DNA of 64,000 nucleotides, taken from the NCBI RefSeq assembly GCF_033126985.1, contig NZ_AP024714.1, positions 248,001 through 312,000 of the forward strand, given 5' to 3'. The stretch is from Methylomarinovum caldicuralii (GTDB lineage Bacteria; Pseudomonadota; Gammaproteobacteria; Methylococcales; Methylothermaceae). A program made the translations under genes and the position numbers. The notes beneath the pieces are model-generated. The model saw only the letters and a list, made by a program, of their open reading frames with translations, was not told where the DNA came from and ran no database searches. Positions 6,376-32,078 of this stretch are shown here, piece after piece; the stretch's first letter is position 1; the number at the start of each line of letters is the position of its first letter.

Positions 6376-8362
6376 GCCGGGTGACCGCGGGCGATTGCTC
6401 ACCCGCGGTTCCCACAGATCCGGACGTGCCCGATTAAGGCATCCGGCTCCTCGGACTATGGCGTCGCTACGCAACGGGCAATTCCGTGAACCACGCGCGG
6501 TGGGGGGAGTGGGTATCGTTTGTACAGCCGCCCAAAATGGTCCCGGTTCATCCGTTCCCGGTTGCGGCGGGACAACCATTTGTACCAGCGCCGTCTGACC
6601 TCGTACAGGAAGCGGGCCAGCGATTGGCTGTTGCCGACGATCCCATAGTAGGCATAATGCCCCTTGAGTTTGCGGCTCAGGGCCGCTTGTTGGTCTGCAA
6701 CCGGCCAGTGGCGGTGCATCCGGCACCAGTGGTTGATCGCCTGCAGGGAGCGGCTGAGCCGGGCTTGGGCGGTCTTGCGTTTGACGACCCAACGCCCTTT
6801 CCTTGAGCGTCCCCAGTAGTGGGTGAATCCCAGGTATTGGAAGCTCTGGCCTTTCCGTCCGGGTTTTCTGAAGTCGAGCAGGCGGGTTTTGTCCGGGTGC
6901 AGGCGCAGGCCGTATTTGGCCAGGCGCTTGCCCAGAACGGCCAATACCCGCCGGGCGTCTTCTTCCCGTTCGAACACCAGGACCGCATCGTCGGCGAACC
7001 GGACTTCGAAGGCGCTGCCTTGCAGTCGCGGTTTGACCGTCTGCTCGAACCACAGGTCGAGCACGTGATGCAGGTAGAGGTTGGCCAGCAGTGGGGAGAT
7101 CACCCCACCTTGCGGTGTCCCTTGTTCGGGGTAGTGAAGCTGTCCGCCTTCCATGACACCGGCATTCAGCCATTTACCGATCACGCGGCAGATCACGCCG
7201 TCGCGCACCCTCTGCCCCAGAAAGTTCCGCAGCCGGTCCCGGTCCACATCGTCGAAGAAGTTTTGGATGTCCAGGTCGATGACCCAGCCACCGCCCATGG
7301 CCATCAGCCCGCCCCATAGCCTCTCCAGGGCCTGGTGGGCACTGCGTCCGGGCCGGAACCCGTAGGCGCAGTCGAGAAAGTCCTGCTCGAAGATGGGTTC
7401 CAGCGCCATCAGCACCGCCCGTTGCAGCACCTTGTCTTCCAGCGTGGGAATGCCGATCGGGCGGGTCTTTCCCGTTCCCGGCTTGGGCAGGTGGACGCGC
7501 CGTACCGCAGGCGCCCGATACCGGCCGGTCTTGAACCGTTCCAGCAGGCGCGTCAGGTTCTCCTCTAAGTCGGCTGCGTATTGGGATGCAGTCACGCCGT
7601 CCACCCCGGCGGCCCCGTCCTTGCGGGTGCGCCGCCAGGCTTCTTCCAGCCACACCACGTCGATGTGGTGGGCAATCGTGGTCAGTTCCAGCTTCGGTTC
7701 GATCCGGGCCAGTTCCGCTAGCTTCCGTTGTCGTGTTGAGATGTTCTCCTGGCTCGATGTCCCGGCCATCTGTCCCTCCGAAAGCCCCATCGTCCGACCT
7801 GCCGCTTCCCTCCATCGGGTCCCTTGGGGCAGGTTCCCCGACTTCCCAGGTACTATCGGCAGGCTCCGATTGCTCGATCACCTTCCCAGCGCGCTTCGTC
7901 GCCTTCGCGCGCCGGTACCCTGCTTCGTGTCCCGTTCGCTCCCATCGGCCGGACACCGCTCCGATGGGCCTGGGCCTTTTCTCACACGGCGCCCGCACCG
8001 CTCTTCCCGCAGGGAGTGTTCGAGCCCTCCCAGGTTCCTGGGCGACCCTTGCCCTGCATGCCCCGCTCTTCGACCCCGGCGGAGGGATGATGCCAGGCCA
8101 GTACAGCACCACCCCTGTTGCCTTCCGTCCGTTCAACAACGTCGGCTCCGCATTCCGTACTTTCGAGGCTCCATCACGCGGCCTACAGGCCCCCTGTGTA
8201 CGCTTCGCAGTCGGGATCGCTCCTCGACCACGCAACACTCGGTTCCGGCTGGTGGCCAGCCTTGGCCGGACAGGACTTGCACCTGTCAGGTCGCTCTGAA
8301 GGTTTCAGCGATGTCTTTCCTTCTACATAACTTCCTCCTTCTCCAGGCTTGGCCTGGCGCAA
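6376..8362 (-). mobile_element. Group II intron, unit 1 (last in transcription order)
   Basis: Minus-strand retroelement RNA with an intron-encoded reverse transcriptase. Downstream of the protein gene the RNA reads GAGCCGGATGCC, a short loop, then GGGCACGTCCGG. This is a recognisable domain V with the AGC triad. Next comes a domain VI-like stem CCGCGGG/CCCGCGG with loop TGAGCAATCG. The 5' end reads TTGCGCCAGGCC, close to but not matching the usual GUGCG start. The left flank (CGGTCTTGCC on the minus strand) is the only 3' exon of the array that is not another intron. It lies just upstream of the IS66 transposase gene. Confidence 0.85.
6456..7769 (-). CDS. ltrA: Group II intron reverse transcriptase/maturase, unit 1
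   Basis: Multifunctional intron-encoded protein (437 aa) that helps splicing and copies the intron RNA at new sites. Reverse-transcriptase blocks appear in order: [53 protein letters not shown], the [15 protein letters not shown] block, and the catalytic FADDAVLVF (Phe where Tyr is commonest). The maturase/X region follows ([35 protein letters not shown]). No HNH endonuclease domain is present, as in several bacterial classes including class C. Start chosen at ATG 7769, preceded by GGAGGGACAG; an in-frame ATG at 7790 would add seven residues. Differs from the other two copies at two residues (Glu and Arg for Lys and Trp). Confidence 0.9.
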
Positions 8363-10349
8363 GCCGGGTGACCGCGGGCGATTGCTCACCCGCGGTTCCC
8401 ACAGATCCGGACGTGCCCGATTAAGGCATCCGGCTCCTCGGACTATGGCGTCGCTACGCAACGGGCAATTCCGTGAACCACGCGCGGTGGGGGGAGTGGG
8501 TATCGTTTGTACAGCCGCCCAAAATGGTCCCAGTTCATCCGTTCCCGGTTGCGGCGGGACAACCATTTGTACCAGCGCCGTCTGACCTCGTACAGGAAGC
8601 GGGCCAGCGATTGGCTGTTGCCGACGATCCCATAGTAGGCATAATGCCCCTTGAGTTTGCGGCTCAGGGCCGCTTGTTGGTCTGCAACCGGCCAGTGGCG
8701 GTGCATCCGGCACCAGTGGTTGATCGCCTGCAGGGAGCGGCTGAGCCGGGCTTGGGCGGTCTTGCGTTTGACGACCCAACGCCCTTTCCTTGAGCGTCCC
8801 CAGTAGTGGGTGAATCCCAGGTATTGGAAGCTCTGGCCTTTCCGTCCGGGTTTTCTGAAGTCGAGCAGGCGGGTTTTGTCCGGGTGCAGGCGCAGGCCGT
8901 ATTTGGCCAGGCGCTTGCCCAGAACGGCCAATACCCGCCGGGCGTCTTCTTCCCGTTTGAACACCAGGACCGCATCGTCGGCGAACCGGACTTCGAAGGC
9001 GCTGCCTTGCAGTCGCGGTTTGACCGTCTGCTCGAACCACAGGTCGAGCACGTGATGCAGGTAGAGGTTGGCCAGCAGTGGGGAGATCACCCCACCTTGC
9101 GGTGTCCCTTGTTCGGGGTAGTGAAGCTGTCCGCCTTCCATGACACCGGCATTCAGCCATTTACCGATCACGCGGCAGATCACGCCGTCGCGCACCCTCT
9201 GCCCCAGAAAGTTCCGCAGCCGGTCCCGGTCCACATCGTCGAAGAAGTTTTGGATGTCCAGGTCGATGACCCAGCCACCGCCCATGGCCATCAGCCCGCC
9301 CCATAGCCTCTCCAGGGCCTGGTGGGCACTGCGTCCGGGCCGGAACCCGTAGGCGCAGTCGAGAAAGTCCTGCTCGAAGATGGGTTCCAGCGCCATCAGC
9401 ACCGCCCGTTGCAGCACCTTGTCTTCCAGCGTGGGAATGCCGATCGGGCGGGTCTTTCCCGTTCCCGGCTTGGGCAGGTGGACGCGCCGTACCGCAGGCG
9501 CCCGATACCGGCCGGTCTTGAACCGTTCCAGCAGGCGCGTCAGGTTCTCCTCTAAGTCGGCTGCGTATTGGGATGCAGTCACGCCGTCCACCCCGGCGGC
9601 CCCGTCCTTGCGGGTGCGCCGCCAGGCTTCTTCCAGCCACACCACGTCGATGTGGTGGGCAATCGTGGTCAGTTCCAGCTTCGGTTCGATCCGGGCCAGT
9701 TCCGCTAGCTTCCGTTGTCGTGTTGAGATGTTCTCCTGGCTCGATGTCCCGGCCATCTGTCCCTCCGAAAGCCCCATCGTCCGACCTGCCGCTTCCCTCC
9801 ATCGGGTCCCTTGGGGCAGGTTCCCCGACTTCCCAGGTACTATCGGCAGGCTCCGATTGCTCGATCACCTTCCCAGCGCGCTTCGTCGCCTTCGCGCGCC
9901 GGTACCCTGCTTCGTGTCCCGTTCGCTCCCATCGGCCGGACACCGCTCCGATGGGCCTGGGCCTTTTCTCACACGGCGCCCGCACCGCTCTTCCCGCAAG
10001 GAGTGATCGAGCCCTCCCAGGTTCCTGGGCGACCCTTGCCCTGCATGCCCCGCTCTTCGACCCCGGCGGAGGGATGATGCCAGGCCAGTACAGCACCACC
10101 CCTGTTGCCTTCCGTCCGTTCAACAACGTCGGCTCCGCATTCCGTACTTTCGAGGCTCCATCACGCGGCCTACAGGCCCCCTGTGTACGCTTCGCAGTCG
10201 GGATCGCTCCTCGACCACGCAACACTCGGTTCCGGCTGGTGGCCAGCCTTGGCCGGACAGGACTTGCACCTGTCAGGTCGCTCTGAAGGTTTCAGCGATG
10301 TCTTTCCTTCTACATAACTTCCTCCTTCTCCAGGCTTGGCCTGGCGCAA
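8363..10349 (-). mobile_element. Group II intron, unit 2 (middle)
   Basis: Complete 1987-bp intron lying directly between units 1 and 3. Its 5' neighbour on the transcript is the domain VI end of unit 3 and its 3' neighbour is the 5' end of unit 1. At the junctions the minus strand reads GTCACCCGGC followed at once by TTGCGCCAGG. No exon sequence or target duplication separates the units. Confidence 0.85.
8443..9756 (-). CDS. ltrA: Group II intron reverse transcriptase/maturase, unit 2
   Basis: Same protein as in unit 3, with no difference seen over its length, and differing from unit 1 at two residues (LVFKREED and RMNWDHFG here). The frame is intact, with all reverse-transcriptase blocks and the FADD catalytic motif. 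The start at ATG 9756 has the same GGAGG site; the alternative is 9777. Its near-identity to its neighbours points to recent duplication. Confidence 0.9.
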   Translation of the reverse strand: MAGTSSQENISTRQRKLAELARIEPKLELTTIAHHIDVVWLEEAWRRTRKDGAAGVDGVTASQYAADLEENLTRLLERFKTGRYRAPAVRRVHLPKPGTGKTRPIGIPTLEDKVLQRAVLMALEPIFEQDFLDCAYGFRPGRSAHQALERLWGGLMAMGGGWVIDLDIQNFFDDVDRDRLRNFLGQRVRDGVICRVIGKWLNAGVMEGGQLHYPEQGTPQGGVISPLLANLYLHHVLDLWFEQTVKPRLQGSAFEVRFADDAVLVFKREEDARRVLAVLGKRLAKYGLRLHPDKTRLLDFRKPGRKGQSFQYLGFTHYWGRSRKGRWVVKRKTAQARLSRSLQAINHWCRMHRHWPVADQQAALSRKLKGHYAYYGIVGNSQSLARFLYEVRRRWYKWLSRRNRERMNWDHFGRLYKRYPLPPPRVVHGIARCVATP

Positions 10350-12336
10350 GCCGGGTGACCGCGGGCGATTGCTCACCCGCGGTTCCCACAGATCCGGACG
10401 TGCCCGATTAAGGCATCCGGCTCCTCGGACTATGGCGTCGCTACGCAACGGGCAATTCCGTGAACCACGCGCGGTGGGGGGAGTGGGTATCGTTTGTACA
10501 GCCGCCCAAAATGGTCCCAGTTCATCCGTTCCCGGTTGCGGCGGGACAACCATTTGTACCAGCGCCGTCTGACCTCGTACAGGAAGCGGGCCAGCGATTG
10601 GCTGTTGCCGACGATCCCATAGTAGGCATAATGCCCCTTGAGTTTGCGGCTCAGGGCCGCTTGTTGGTCTGCAACCGGCCAGTGGCGGTGCATCCGGCAC
10701 CAGTGGTTGATCGCCTGCAGGGAGCGGCTGAGCCGGGCTTGGGCGGTCTTGCGTTTGACGACCCAACGCCCTTTCCTTGAGCGTCCCCAGTAGTGGGTGA
10801 ATCCCAGGTATTGGAAGCTCTGGCCTTTCCGTCCGGGTTTTCTGAAGTCGAGCAGGCGGGTTTTGTCCGGGTGCAGGCGCAGGCCGTATTTGGCCAGGCG
10901 CTTGCCCAGAACGGCCAATACCCGCCGGGCGTCTTCTTCCCGTTTGAACACCAGGACCGCATCGTCGGCGAACCGGACTTCGAAGGCGCTGCCTTGCAGT
11001 CGCGGTTTGACCGTCTGCTCGAACCACAGGTCGAGCACGTGATGCAGGTAGAGGTTGGCCAGCAGTGGGGAGATCACCCCACCTTGCGGTGTCCCTTGTT
11101 CGGGGTAGTGAAGCTGTCCGCCTTCCATGACACCGGCATTCAGCCATTTACCGATCACGCGGCAGATCACGCCGTCGCGCACCCTCTGCCCCAGAAAGTT
11201 CCGCAGCCGGTCCCGGTCCACATCGTCGAAGAAGTTTTGGATGTCCAGGTCGATGACCCAGCCACCGCCCATGGCCATCAGCCCGCCCCATAGCCTCTCC
11301 AGGGCCTGGTGGGCACTGCGTCCGGGCCGGAACCCGTAGGCGCAGTCGAGAAAGTCCTGCTCGAAGATGGGTTCCAGCGCCATCAGCACCGCCCGTTGCA
11401 GCACCTTGTCTTCCAGCGTGGGAATGCCGATCGGGCGGGTCTTTCCCGTTCCCGGCTTGGGCAGGTGGACGCGCCGTACCGCAGGCGCCCGATACCGGCC
11501 GGTCTTGAACCGTTCCAGCAGGCGCGTCAGGTTCTCCTCTAAGTCGGCTGCGTATTGGGATGCAGTCACGCCGTCCACCCCGGCGGCCCCGTCCTTGCGG
11601 GTGCGCCGCCAGGCTTCTTCCAGCCACACCACGTCGATGTGGTGGGCAATCGTGGTCAGTTCCAGCTTCGGTTCGATCCGGGCCAGTTCCGCTAGCTTCC
11701 GTTGTCGTGTTGAGATGTTCTCCTGGCTCGATGTCCCGGCCATCTGTCCCTCCGAAAGCCCCATCGTCCGACCTGCCGCTTCCCTCCATCGGGTCCCTTG
11801 GGGCAGGTTCCCCGACTTCCCAGGTACTATCGGCAGGCTCCGATTGCTCGATCACCTTCCCAGCGCGCTTCGTCGCCTTCGCGCGCCGGTACCCTGCTTC
11901 GTGTCCCGTTCGCTCCCATCGGCCGGACACCGCTCCGATGGGCCTGGGCCTTTTCTCACACGGCGCCCGCACCGCTCTTCCCGCAAGGAGTGATCGAGCC
12001 CTCCCAGGTTCCTGGGCGACCCTTGCCCTGCATGCCCCGCTCTTCGACCCCGGCGGAGGGATGATGCCAGGCCAGTACAGCACCACCCCTGTTGCCTTCC
12101 GTCCGTTCAACAACGTCGGCTCCGCATTCCGTACTTTCGAGGCTCCATCACGCGGCCTACAGGCCCCCTGTGTACGCTTCGCAGTCGGGATCGCTCCTCG
12201 ACCACGCAACACTCGGTTCCGGCTGGTGGCCAGCCTTGGCCGGACAGGACTTGCACCTGTCAGGTCGCTCTGAAGGTTTCAGCGATGTCTTTCCTTCTAC
12301 ATAACTTCCTCCTTCTCCAGGCTTGGCCTGGCGCAA
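10350..12336 (-). mobile_element. Group II intron, unit 3 (first in transcription order)
   Basis: The only unit with a non-intron 5' exon: on the minus strand AATAACCGTTCA precedes TTGCGCCAGG. That exon lies just upstream of an IS481-type transposase gene transcribed in the opposite direction. Internal sequence appears the same as unit 2. Confidence 0.85.
10430..11743 (-). CDS. ltrA: Group II intron reverse transcriptase/maturase, unit 3
   Basis: Intact reverse transcriptase/maturase with the same residues as unit 2. It lies in the unit nearest the 5' exon, so if the array is read from outside on the minus strand this copy is reached first. Start at ATG 11743 with the GGAGG site; alternative 11764. 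Confidence 0.9.
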   Translation of the reverse strand: MAGTSSQENISTRQRKLAELARIEPKLELTTIAHHIDVVWLEEAWRRTRKDGAAGVDGVTASQYAADLEENLTRLLERFKTGRYRAPAVRRVHLPKPGTGKTRPIGIPTLEDKVLQRAVLMALEPIFEQDFLDCAYGFRPGRSAHQALERLWGGLMAMGGGWVIDLDIQNFFDDVDRDRLRNFLGQRVRDGVICRVIGKWLNAGVMEGGQLHYPEQGTPQGGVISPLLANLYLHHVLDLWFEQTVKPRLQGSAFEVRFADDAVLVFKREEDARRVLAVLGKRLAKYGLRLHPDKTRLLDFRKPGRKGQSFQYLGFTHYWGRSRKGRWVVKRKTAQARLSRSLQAINHWCRMHRHWPVADQQAALSRKLKGHYAYYGIVGNSQSLARFLYEVRRRWYKWLSRRNRERMNWDHFGRLYKRYPLPPPRVVHGIARCVATP

Positions 12337-26752: not shown

Positions 26753-28430
26753 CCGACCGTCCCTGGTTCGCCCACTACCCGCCCGGCCTGCCCGCCGAAC
26801 TGCCGCCCCGGCGCGACCCCTCCCTGATCGCCCTGTTCGACCGCTGCTGCCGCCATTTCGCTGACCGGCCGGCCCTGGAAAACTTCGGCACCGCTCTGAG
26901 CTACCGCCGCTGGCACGACCTGTCCCGCCGTTTCGCCGCCGCCCTCCAGCAGCTGGGACTGGAAAAAGGCCAGCGCCTGGCGATCATGCTGCCCAATTTC
27001 CTCAGCTACCCGGTGGCCCTGACAGGCACCCTGCGGGCCGGGCTGGTGGTGGTCAACCTCAACCCGCTGTTCACCCCCCCCGGGAGCTGACGGTGGAACT
27101 GGAAGACGCGCGGCCGGACGCCCTCGTCATCCTCGAGCAGCTCCTTCCCAAACTGGCAAAAGTGCCTGCCGCATACCGTCCCCGACGGCAGATCGTGGTC
27201 CGGGCCGGAGACCTGCTCGAAGCCTGGAAGCGCCCGGCGGCCGACTGGCTGGCCCGCTGGCGCGGCCGCAGCTGGCCCCGCTGGCCGCAACAGGCGCTCG
27301 CCTTCCACGAACTGCTCCAGACCCGCACCGATCCCGTACCGGTCCCCCTGTCACCGGCAGACCCGGCCTTCCTGCAGTACACCGGCGGCACCACCGGCAC
27401 GCCCAAGGGTGCCGTGCTCAGCCACGCCAACCTGCTCGCCAACGTCGAGCAGGTACGGCTGTGGCTCACCTGCAGCGGCTGGCGCCGGCCGCTGCGTCCG
27501 GGGCGGGAACGGCTGGTCACCGCCCTACCCCTGTCCCACATCTTCGCCCTCACCGCCAACCTGTGGGTGGGGCTGAGCATCGGCAGCCACAACCAGCTGG
27601 TTCCCGATCCCCGCAACCTGCGCGATCTGGTCCGGGTACTGCGGCGCTCCCGTTTCACCGCCATCACCGGGGTCAACACCCTGTTCGACCATCTGCTGCG
27701 GGCCCCCGGCTTCGCGCGGCTGGACTTCTCCCACCTGGGTCTGACCGTGGCCGGCGGCATGCCCATGCACCCGACGGTGGCCGAGCGCTGGCAGGCGGTG
27801 ACCGGCTGTCCGGTCATAGAAGGCTACGGGCTCACCGAGGCATCCCCGGTGGTCACCCTCAATCCGCTCGATCTGGAACGCTACAACGGCAGCATCGGGC
27901 TGCCGCTTCCCGGCACCGACTGCCGGCTGCGCCGCGACGGCGAAGACGCCCCGCCCGGGGAGGCGGGCGAGCTGTGTGTGCGCGGGCCGCAGGTGATGCA
28001 GGGTTACTGGAACCGCCCGGAGGAAACCGCCGCCACTTTCACCGCCGACGGCTGGCTGCGCACCGGCGACATCGCCCGCATGGACGCCGACGGCTTCTTC
28101 TACATCGTCGACCGCAAGAAGGACATGATCCTGGTGTCCGGCTTCAACGTCTACCCCAGCGAGATCGAGGCGGTGGTCTCACAGCACCCCGGGGTGCGCG
28201 AATGTGCCGCCGTGGGCGTGCCCGATCCCGATACCGGCGAGGCGGTCATGCTGTTCGTGGTCCGCCAGGACCCGGATCTCGACGAGTCGGCACTGCGGGC
28301 GTGGTGCCGCGAGCGCCTGACCGCCTACAAACGCCCCCGGCGGATCGTGTTCCTGGATGAGCTGCCCAAATCCGCCATCGGCAAAGTGCTGCGCCGCCAG
28401 CTGCGGGAGGCGGCACGCGCCCGAATTTGA
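26749..28430 (+). pseudogene. Acyl-CoA synthetase (AMP-forming), frameshifted at a C8 tract
   Basis: FadD-like adenylate-forming ligase, expected to activate fatty acids to acyl-CoA for the adjacent acyltransferase. The first frame (ATG 26749) encodes ADRPALENFGTALSYRRW and LAIMLPNFLSYPVAL and stops at 27090 after NPLFTPP. The second starts within RELTVELEDARPDALVI. It carries the AMP-binding loop YTGGTTGTPKGAVLSH, GYGLTEASPVV, the hinge DRKKDMILVSGFNVYPSEIE and the catalytic lysine in PKSAIGKVLRRQL. Eight C's (27074-27081) separate the frames; six or nine would restore one protein of about 560 aa, the family's usual length. Overlaps the upstream fusion gene by ATGA. Confidence 0.85.
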
Positions 28431-28467
28431 TCCACGTCAAAACCACGGCCGGCAAAGTGCCTATAAT
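28427..28467 (+). promoter_or_regulatory. FNR/Anr-type promoter (box at about -41.5, TATAAT)
   Basis: TTGATCCACGTCAA (28427-28440) matches the FNR consensus TTGAT-N4-ATCAA with one mismatch. A perfect TATAAT lies at 28462-28467. With the start expected near 28475, the box centre is about 41 bp upstream, the spacing of class II FNR-activated promoters. The box overlaps the stop codon of the acyl-CoA synthetase gene. Confidence 0.6.
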
Positions 28468-28474
28468 TGAAACC

Positions 28475-28575
28475 AGACGTGTTGCAGCCATCGTGACAAG
28501 GTGGATTTGAAGGCGGTCAGAGACTGTGACCGCATTTTCTGTACCAAAAAGGCGGATCTTGCGATCCGCCTTTTC
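28475..28575 (+). ncRNA. Candidate FNR-controlled small RNA, about 100 nt
   Basis: Between the promoter and a strong intrinsic terminator there is no reading frame of note. There is a perfect stem-loop GCGGTCA-GAGACTG-TGACCGC (28513-28533), then an unpaired ATTTTCTGTACC and the terminator hairpin with its T-run. A single-stranded 5' region, a stem, an A/U-rich stretch and a terminal hairpin are typical of Hfq-type trans-acting RNAs such as E. coli FnrS. No sequence similarity to FnrS was recognised. Expression and targets are not known; this is an inference from signals alone. Confidence 0.5.
28546..28574. terminator. Bidirectional intrinsic terminator
   Basis: AAAAA-GGCGGATC-TTGC-GATCCGCC-TTTT. 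An A-run on one side and a T-run on the other let it serve both the plus-strand candidate sRNA and the converging rplI operon. Confidence 0.88.
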
Positions 28576-28596
28576 GCTTCCGGATACCGGGGAGGC

Positions 28597-29046
28597 TCAG
28601 GCTTCCGGCTGCACCACCACCTTGACGGTGGCGGTCACGTCCGGATGGAGCCGCAGCTCCACCTCGTATTCGCCGGTCTGGCGCAGCGGCCCTTCCGGCA
28701 GCAGCACTTCCTGACGCGATACCGGCACCCCGGCGGCGGTGATGGCCTCGGCCAGATTCTGGGTGCCGATGGAACCGTAGAGCTTGCCTTCCGGACCTGC
28801 CTTCTGGGTGATGACCACCTCCAGCTCGGCCAGTTTCTCGGCCCGCTCCCGGGCCGCCTGCAACGCCTCGGCGGCCTTGCGTTCCAGTTCCGCCCGGCGC
28901 TGCTCGAACTCGGCGATGCGCTCGGGCGTGGCCCGTACGGCCTTGCCCTGGGGAATCAGATAGTTGCGGGCATAACCGGGTTTGACGTCAACCCGGTCGC
29001 CCAGATCGCCCAGATTGGCGATTTTTTCAAGCAGAATCACTTCCAT
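28597..29046 (-). CDS. rplI: 50S ribosomal protein L9
   Basis: Binds 23S rRNA near the base of the L1 stalk. At 149 aa it has the usual length and layout. The N-terminal domain begins [17 protein letters not shown] and [14 protein letters not shown], the L9 signature. A long charged connecting helix follows ([19 protein letters not shown]), then the C-terminal domain. It is the last gene of the rpsF-rpsR-(DUF2232)-rplI operon and ends at the bidirectional terminator. Confidence 0.98.
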
Positions 29047-30657: not shown

Positions 30658-30709
30658 AATGGCTCCTTACGGTTTGAAAAGCTTTCTACCCGATGTAGTA
30701 AAGCAAGGA

Positions 30710-30771
30710 GCGAATGGGAACATTCGCCGTGATAAACGGCTAATTGTAGCCGCTCAAGGGCAGGGAAACAA
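30710..30771 (-). promoter_or_regulatory. rpsF operon promoter and leader hairpin
   Basis: On the minus strand, TTGTTT (30766-30771), 17 nt, then TACAAT (30743-30748). The leader of about 80 nt holds a perfect stem-loop GCGAATG-TTCC-CATTCGC (30710-30727). S6:S18-responsive leaders are known for this operon in other bacteria; whether this hairpin is one is not decided by the sequence. Confidence 0.55.
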
Positions 30772-30842
30772 TGGTCGGATGCCCCATCGTCCACCTTGCC
30801 GGAGGAGGCTGAGAAGGCGCAAATTGACGGGCGCCAGGCGAT

Positions 30843-32078
30843 TCAGCGCCGGCACGCTCCCTGGTAGATGGTCACGGGCTCGACGGCCTCGAAACGGCAC
30901 GAAACCCCGTGGGGAATGAGATAGGACTGGCCGCGGCGCAACGGAATCTGTCCCCGGCGCCAGGCGATTCGGCACCGGCCCTCGAGCACGATGCCGAGGC
31001 GCAAAGCCCCCGAGGCGTCGAAAACGTCCCCGCCGGCCAGTTCGATACGGCTGAGGCGAAACTCGTCCACCGGGGCTTCATAGACGGCCTCCACGCCGTG
31101 CGACACCGGCCGCAGGATTTCCGCCGGCCGTCCCTCGAACCTGACGATCTCCAGCAGCGCCGGCACATCCACGTGCTTGGGGGTCAGGCCACCGCGCAGG
31201 ACATTGTTGGAGTTGGCCATGACCTCCACCCCCACCCCCTGCAGATAGGCGTGGAGTTCGCCGGCGGCCTGAAAGATCGCCTCCCCCGGCCGCAGACGGA
31301 GAAAGTTGAGCAGGAAGATGGAAAACAGCCCCCGGTCGTGGCGGCCCGCCTGGGAGTAAAGTTCATCGGCCCACAGAAACCAGAATTCCCGCTGTTCTTT
31401 CGACCACGGGCCTTCCCCCCGCAGTCGCTGCAGCACCGGCCCGAGCAGGGCGTCCACTTCGGCCTGGGGCAAGGTCATCAGCGCCTCGTAGAAGCGTTTC
31501 AGGCCGCATTCCCGCAGCTGGCGCAGCAGTCCCGCCCATTCGGGAATACGTGCCAGTTCCGCCTCGATCTCCGCCTCAGGGCGGAAGCCCTTGAGGGCAT
31601 AGAAGGGCGTCAGGGCGCTCAGCAGTTCCGGCTTGTGATTGCGGTCGCGGTAATTGCGCCGGGGCGAATCCAGCGGGATACCCTGCGCCTCCTCCCGCGC
31701 GTAGCCAGCTTCCGCCTGCCGCTTATTGGGATGCACCTGGATCGACAACGGCCGGGCCGCCGCCAGGATCTTGAGCAGAAAGGGCAGCTGGCCGTGATAC
31801 TTGTCGGCCAGCTCCCCCAGCAACTGCGTCGGCGCGGCGGCCAGCAGCCGGTCCAGCGGCACCTTGACGCCATCGATCACTGCCTGGGCCGGCAGATCGG
31901 GATGGGCGCCGATCCACAGTTCGGCGAAGGGTTTGCGTTCGGGATTGGGGATTCCCAGCAGCCGGGGGATGTAGTCGGGATCCCCCCAGGCGTAATGCTG
32001 CACCCCGCAGAACAGGGGCAACGGGGCCGGATCACGGCAGAAAGCGGCGATCGCCCGCTCGATTCGGTCCTGCATCAT
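30843..32078 (-). CDS. manA: Mannose-6-phosphate isomerase, type I
   Basis: Interconverts fructose-6-phosphate and mannose-6-phosphate, feeding GDP-mannose synthesis. The 411-aa protein carries the zinc-site segments LSIQVHPNKRQAE and HKPELLSALTPFYALKGFRP, the helical insert in the middle, and AYLQGVGVEVMANSNNVLRGGLTPKHVD, a type I signature. It ends in the small C-terminal cupin fold (PHGVSCRFEAVEPVTIYQ). Start at ATG 32078 with GGAG four bases upstream. It follows ftsZ on the same strand, separated by 50 bp and a GC-rich hairpin, so it is probably a separate unit. The nearby glycosyltransferases could use its product. Confidence 0.95.
   Translation of the reverse strand: MMQDRIERAIAAFCRDPAPLPLFCGVQHYAWGDPDYIPRLLGIPNPERKPFAELWIGAHPDLPAQAVIDGVKVPLDRLLAAAPTQLLGELADKYHGQLPFLLKILAAARPLSIQVHPNKRQAEAGYAREEAQGIPLDSPRRNYRDRNHKPELLSALTPFYALKGFRPEAEIEAELARIPEWAGLLRQLRECGLKRFYEALMTLPQAEVDALLGPVLQRLRGEGPWSKEQREFWFLWADELYSQAGRHDRGLFSIFLLNFLRLRPGEAIFQAAGELHAYLQGVGVEVMANSNNVLRGGLTPKHVDVPALLEIVRFEGRPAEILRPVSHGVEAVYEAPVDEFRLSRIELAGGDVFDASGALRLGIVLEGRCRIAWRRGQIPLRRGQSYLIPHGVSCRFEAVEPVTIYQGACRR

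Follow-up and report, generated by a model that had tools for sequence, protein, structure and literature searches.

Within a 64,000-nt stretch of DNA from Methylomarinovum caldicuralii, a thermophilic marine methane oxidizer (hereafter the window, in whose coordinates the features around rplI are given), we found an FNR-type promoter that very probably makes a small RNA, whose predicted 5' part is perfectly complementary to the start of an orphan pmoC gene. That this RNA is activated by FNR and represses pmoC at low oxygen, with pmoC as its target, is our favored reading, put forward tentatively at somewhat less than even odds. Four things are read directly from the DNA: the layout of the promoter, the presence of the element in two species, the genes for FNR and Hfq, and the complementarity to pmoC together with its uniqueness. 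A preliminary description of this stretch had proposed an anaerobically induced small RNA; its FNR-type promoter and terminated transcription unit are well supported, while conservation turned out to be mixed and the likeness to FnrS is one of layout only.

The promoter (28427–28467, plus strand) has a class II FNR-type layout, in which a box TTGATCCACGTCAA (28427–28440) with 9 of the 10 consensus letters is followed after 21 bp by the -10 element TATAAT (28462–28467), identical in Methylomarinovum tepidoasis. The near-consensus box centred about 41 bp before a predicted start and the perfect TATAAT were thus both found as first described, the start itself (about 28474–28475, 41 bp past the box centre) being a predicted position. 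An improbable alternative would be that no functional RNA is made here, the promoter preceding the rplI terminator by chance or being in decay, or having transcription against rplI as its sole effect. Against this, with as many as 3 mismatches allowed, the combination of box, spacing and TATAAT turned up once in the 64 kb, vs 0.02 times expected; the one site has 0 mismatches, and 2 of 100 shuffled windows contained such a site. Across the 2.69-Mb M. caldicuralii genome, TTGATNNNNRTCAA gave 12 matches, corresponding to 9 places, vs 2 for the reversed control, and TTGAYNNNNRTCAA-N19-23-TANNNT was found three times vs none for its control (46 vs 4 in ten genomes of the genus). Of the other two M. 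caldicuralii sites of the latter pattern, one precedes a pmoC gene and one is upstream of nqrA (frames named by inspection). Together with the M. tepidoasis copy, further conserved elements of the genus with this promoter pattern make the reading of an FNR-type promoter with its own terminated unit a well supported one, as far as sequence comparison goes.

The element lies in a gap that, as previously stated, measures 166 bp (28431–28596) and is flanked by two genes that converge on it with their 3' ends, an AMP-binding enzyme gene (27093–28430, plus strand; Pfam AMP-binding and AMP-binding_C) and rplI, encoding ribosomal protein L9 (28597–29046, minus strand); its G+C content is 54% vs 65% for the window. 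From layout and fold, we predicted a long form of the RNA at 28474–28577 (plus strand), with a folding energy of -40.1 kcal/mol, 3.5 sd under shuffled sequences and with none of 200 shuffles as low. The M. tepidoasis counterpart folds at -45.4, 4.4 sd under its shuffles and likewise below all 200, and this agreement of both species speaks against the absence of a functional RNA. The 7-bp stem-loop of the preliminary description was located at 28513–28533 (plus strand), followed by ATTTTCTGT; it has 11 bp in the M. tepidoasis fold and is a possible first terminator, since the terminator scan flags this stem and not the last hairpin, at a rate of 0.8 such sites expected by chance per 1 kb scanned. 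A short form of about 65 nt, ending near 28541, is possible. The last hairpin (28547–28574, plus strand) is strong, with 12 bp, and because it also faces rplI it is probably a two-way terminator shared with that gene. Of the strong terminator with T-run announced earlier, the hairpin thus stood and the T-run did not fully, as it consists of TTTT only and lies inside the stem; this short run counts in favor of a promoter without functional RNA. The longest frame that begins in the transcript (GTG 28501) crosses the hairpin and enters antisense rplI, so that the transcript has no gene-like frame, in agreement with the earlier claim; a small protein from GTG 28501 was rejected, as the frame passes through the hairpin in both species. 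As a candidate short non-coding transcript with intrinsic terminator, the element combines a strong fold and the lack of a gene-like frame with a T-run that is short.

In M. tepidoasis the element lies on the same side of rplI, with 137 of 151 positions identical (91%). The upstream gene is a different one there, with its own terminal hairpin and T-run, and similarity starts at the box. Between the two species, 7 of the 41 promoter positions differ, none of them in TATAAT and one in the box, which in M. tepidoasis becomes the perfect consensus TTGATCCACATCAA; changes that spare the -10 element and perfect the box argue against a decaying promoter. In the RNA part, 5 of 104 positions differ (95% identity; 99 are the same) and 28480–28492 is unchanged. 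As yardsticks, 11 of 447 positions differ in rplI, 2–12% of four-fold sites in five neighboring frames, 20 of 188 positions in the one other sizeable intergenic stretch (30658–30845) and none in three short intergenic stretches of 30, 22 and 19 nt, and identity over the 5.6 kb that begin at the box is 94.5%. The RNA is thus better kept than one intergenic stretch and no better than its surroundings overall, and since the surroundings are equally similar and only two close species are compared, conservation says little. The two changes near stem 1 (28529 and 28534) are single-sided, with the pair kept or added, and no compensatory change was found in the stem between these two sequences. This lack of covariation, and conservation not above that of the surroundings, count in favor of the absence of a functional RNA.

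The limitation of the element to two species points the same way. Among ten genus genomes, rplI was found in nine, and the element was absent from the rplI gap of the seven besides M. caldicuralii and M. tepidoasis. The comparison with relatives that the preliminary description had called for therefore gave a divided answer, namely retention in one sister species, absence from seven rplI gaps and no compensatory stem change. With a covariance model built from the two sequences, the element was recognized in 2 of 311 genomes of the order, M. caldicuralii and M. tepidoasis. This search returned 49 genomes of the order at E ≤0.5, and we examined the matches for 28 of the other 47, with model alignments for 9 of the 28 (13 genomes searched, 10 alignments, one locus family twice); the 19 remaining matches were weak, at E 0.126–0.5. 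The 28 examined matches were rejected as terminators or AT-rich chance fits with one exception, outside the genus at E 0.124, in which an identical box, 21 bp and TAGAAT precede an element of the nqrA-linked type described below, so that it has the same promoter and not the same RNA. A pattern of box plus a synonymous-degenerate anti-pmoC motif was present in 5 of the 311 genomes (control pattern, 2 matches), and the three genomes further to the two species were set aside, since they lack TATAAT and one match lies inside an open frame. A 17-mer from the pairing region occurred at 22 places in GTDB contigs, none with the box within 90 bases, in a scanned set that may leave out the source genome itself.

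No known family had been recognized, and this was borne out: at gathering score, Rfam gave only three group II introns and one tRNA in the whole window, and among 4227 models searched up to E 10 over 28380–28640, four weak minus-strand matches far under their gathering scores, with no FnrS. A known RNA family for the element was rejected on these results. The three introns are near-identical and form a head-to-tail array at window 6376–12336, with a period of 1987 bp.

The preliminary description had suggested target prediction with the single-stranded 5' part, and this pointed to pmoC. In both species, the predicted pairing region UGUUGCAGCCAUC (28480–28492, plus strand) matches GAUGGCUGCAACA, located at the start codon of one orphan pmoC gene, as a perfect 13-bp complement. 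We sought the complement ACGATGGCTGCAACA in both genomes at up to 3 mismatches, and found GAGATGGCTGCAACA at the start codon, behind a good ribosome-binding site, in both; the product is PmoC (Pfam AmoC, E 1.9e-119). Apart from the antisense of the element itself, no other site with up to 2 mismatches in the two genomes carried GATGGCTGCAACA. The counts of complementary sites at up to 3 mismatches were barely above control overall, with 84 vs 62 in M. caldicuralii and 87 vs 80 in M. tepidoasis.

To place the match against a background, we compared it with 385 sampled gene starts, a crude choice of open reading frames amounting to about 15% of the genome, which held no pmoC starts (these were added by hand). 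The longest perfect match to these starts was 9, and a match of 13 to at least one of them arose in 0.66% of 20,000 trials with shuffled RNAs, which scales to a chance of about 0.045 for such a match at any of the 2614 genes of M. caldicuralii (PMC10950024, for the gene count); against this orphan pmoC start in particular, 0.015% of shuffled RNAs reached 13. Counted as dimer energy minus the separate folds, the long form with the orphan pmoC gave -18.7, an energy reached by 1 of the 385 background starts. The short form gave -21.1, to which none of these starts came down, and neither did shuffled RNAs except 3 of 1000. By plain duplex energy, which ignores folding costs, pmoC came 15th in a crude list of 1213 starts that included many internal ones. 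In the predicted long-form fold the pairing region is half-paired, and in M. tepidoasis mostly paired, so Hfq, or termination at stem 1, would be needed to free it in the long form. The encoded pmoC start, MAATTQAV, is kept across the genus as coding sequence, including in genomes without this RNA, and conservation of the target therefore proves nothing.

These data also bear on a second reading, which we consider a sizeable possibility though not the favored one, in which an FNR-activated small RNA has as its main target not pmoC but other messages or a protein. The promoter evidence applies to it equally, complementary sites overall lack clear enrichment, and within a sample of about 15% of the genome the dimer energies of two starts, -20.2 and -19.2, come near that of pmoC. 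It fits less well with a 13-bp start-codon match that is unique and identical in both species, and with the low odds of finding a match like this at any gene by chance.

With pmoC as the target, its other copies have to be considered. M. caldicuralii has four pmoC copies, and M. tepidoasis the corresponding four. Two head pmoCAB operons, AMO and Monooxygenase_B following at 904473 and, by inspection, in the other; their start AUGGCUGCAACG offers the RNA 11 bp plus one G-U pair, at dimer energies that are ordinary (29 of 385 starts as low for the long form, 105 of 385 for the short form). The RNA-matched orphan pmoC (634869) has a gene for an AhpC-type peroxiredoxin behind it. The other orphan (2013257) precedes a sigma factor gene, which is rpoH-like by inspection and whose M. 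tepidoasis copy shows Sigma70 domains, and has its own class II FNR-type box in front (2014119–2014160, minus strand); this orphan differs from the complement of the RNA at two positions, and by predicted energies, with 101 and 211 of 385 starts as low, it is not a target.

A class II FNR-type box before a pmoC was observed in four genus genomes, the gene being an orphan with the sigma factor neighbor in M. caldicuralii and M. tepidoasis. Upstream of the orphan pmoC at 634869 we observed GGAACTT, 16 bp and TCATA, an arrangement resembling a sigma-E promoter, and in other genomes of the genus GGGAACTTTT is likewise found in front of pmoC copies that are partial or orphan.

From the features read above we infer that the RNA is transcribed in dependence on FNR, that it pairs with its target in the cell and represses it, and that subunits are exchanged, in the following steps. 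At low oxygen, to judge by the layout, FNR would bind the box and activate the promoter, and the product would be an RNA about 65 or about 100 nt long. Its 5' part, given the complementarity, would cover the start codon of the orphan pmoC and block translation, probably with Hfq, and the pmoCAB messages would perhaps be paired as well, more weakly (11 bp and the G-U pair). The box before the other orphan pmoC, which the RNA does not match, suggests that FNR may activate this gene directly, and the net outcome would be a different PmoC subunit made at low oxygen. In its full form, as an oxygen-controlled switch of PmoC subunits in which the FNR-driven orphan pmoC is turned on and the other pmoC messages are silenced, we regard this scheme as rather unlikely.

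The host encodes the proteins that such a mechanism would use. Two M. caldicuralii regulators pass the HTH_Crp_2 cut-off, an FNR (gene near 1483 kb of the chromosome) and a CRP (320 bits vs a cut-off of 266, NCBIfam), and Hfq is encoded in 9 of the 10 genus genomes, including M. caldicuralii. Cysteines 12, 15 and 21 of the FNR (C-X2-C-X5-C) and that in YCELP align to those of solved FNR chains, e.g. 5cvr, and we take them to be the iron-sulphur cluster ligands. That another protein of the CRP/FNR family binds the box, in response to a signal other than oxygen, is very improbable in our view. It would agree with a recognition helix in which Ala takes the place of the Glu of the aligned solved FNR, and with the score of NCBIfam Fnr, the best model for the FNR candidate, at 199.7 bits under its cut-off of 228; against it, FNR and CRP are the only HTH_Crp_2 regulators of the genome to pass the cut-off, and the host FNR retains its cysteines. 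The helix reads LALATVSR vs LTVETISR in solved FNR, and this replacement of the usual Glu by Ala was observed in all eight FNR proteins extracted from the ten genus genomes, whose boxes nonetheless look classical.

A second element with an FNR-type promoter was observed upstream of nqrA (1617237–1617376, minus strand, M. caldicuralii chromosome), about 100 nt long with its own terminator and kept in 8 of 10 genus genomes. CAGCCAT and then ATCCTCTGGGAAGGG are invariant in all eight, and the spacer diverges; close to the 5' end of the element there is a CCTCCTT similar to an anti-Shine-Dalgarno motif. It has the class II FNR-type promoter, the terminated unit of about 100 nt and CAGCCAT in common with the rplI-gap element and differs in the rest of its sequence. 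Of the two, it is the stronger candidate for a small-RNA family. Rfam gave nothing above gathering score for four of its loci, and its pairing with pmoC leaders was rejected, being not above shuffles (best, 7 of 100). Five genomes outside the genus have elements similar to this one, in which an FNR-type box is combined with an ATCCTCT core and a terminator rich in GC, and a wider methanotroph family of the nqrA-linked type is likely.

In FnrS, an FNR box lies near -41, the parts that pair are single-stranded and a terminator hairpin follows. The predicted layout of the rplI-gap element is the same, without sequence similarity, so that of the FnrS-type arrangement proposed at the outset the layout stood and the sequence did not (Rfam gave no FnrS match, and a blastn search of 5,426 E. 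coli genomes was negative). To the function proposed here, too, the enterobacterial RNA offers a parallel, as it is described as a small RNA switched on by FNR to repress functions that are not needed when oxygen is absent (PMC8139620); the predicted target here is methane monooxygenase, and the element is known from two species only. PaiI of Pseudomonas aeruginosa and PcrZ of Rhodobacter sphaeroides are likewise low-oxygen small RNAs tied to FNR-type regulators, PaiI needing NarL and nitrate and PcrZ needing PrrA and perhaps FnrL, according to the passages cited (PMC8139620); they were compared with the element through Rfam alone. In methanotrophs, EcpR1 and alpha-r45 are small RNAs of Methylosinus sporium 5, from alphaproteobacterial families linked to cell cycle and stress, with no mention of FNR in that text, and a transcription map dated 2025 is described there as the first genome-scale one in methanotrophs (PMC12403871). 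Titles and abstract beginnings in the open-licence literature searched gave no FNR-dependent or low-oxygen small RNA, and no pmo-targeting small RNA, of methanotrophs. The element would thus belong to the class of FNR-activated small RNAs without being FnrS, and what appears new is its host, its sequence and its predicted target.

M. tepidoasis IN45T (AP024718) has denitrification genes and hemerythrin and forms N2O from nitrate at low oxygen, whereas M. caldicuralii IT-9T (AP024714) is described in the passages cited as having neither (PMC10950024). Being present in both a denitrifying and a non-denitrifying species, the RNA is not tied to denitrification.

Methane oxidizers at oxic-anoxic borders curb methane release with a key enzyme that needs oxygen, and little is known of the regulation of methane monooxygenase under falling oxygen. 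The prediction comes down to one 13-bp duplex, testable by a few base exchanges. If true, it would provide the first small RNA, within the literature searched, to act on particulate methane monooxygenase, and the orphan pmoC genes would gain a role in the response to oxygen.
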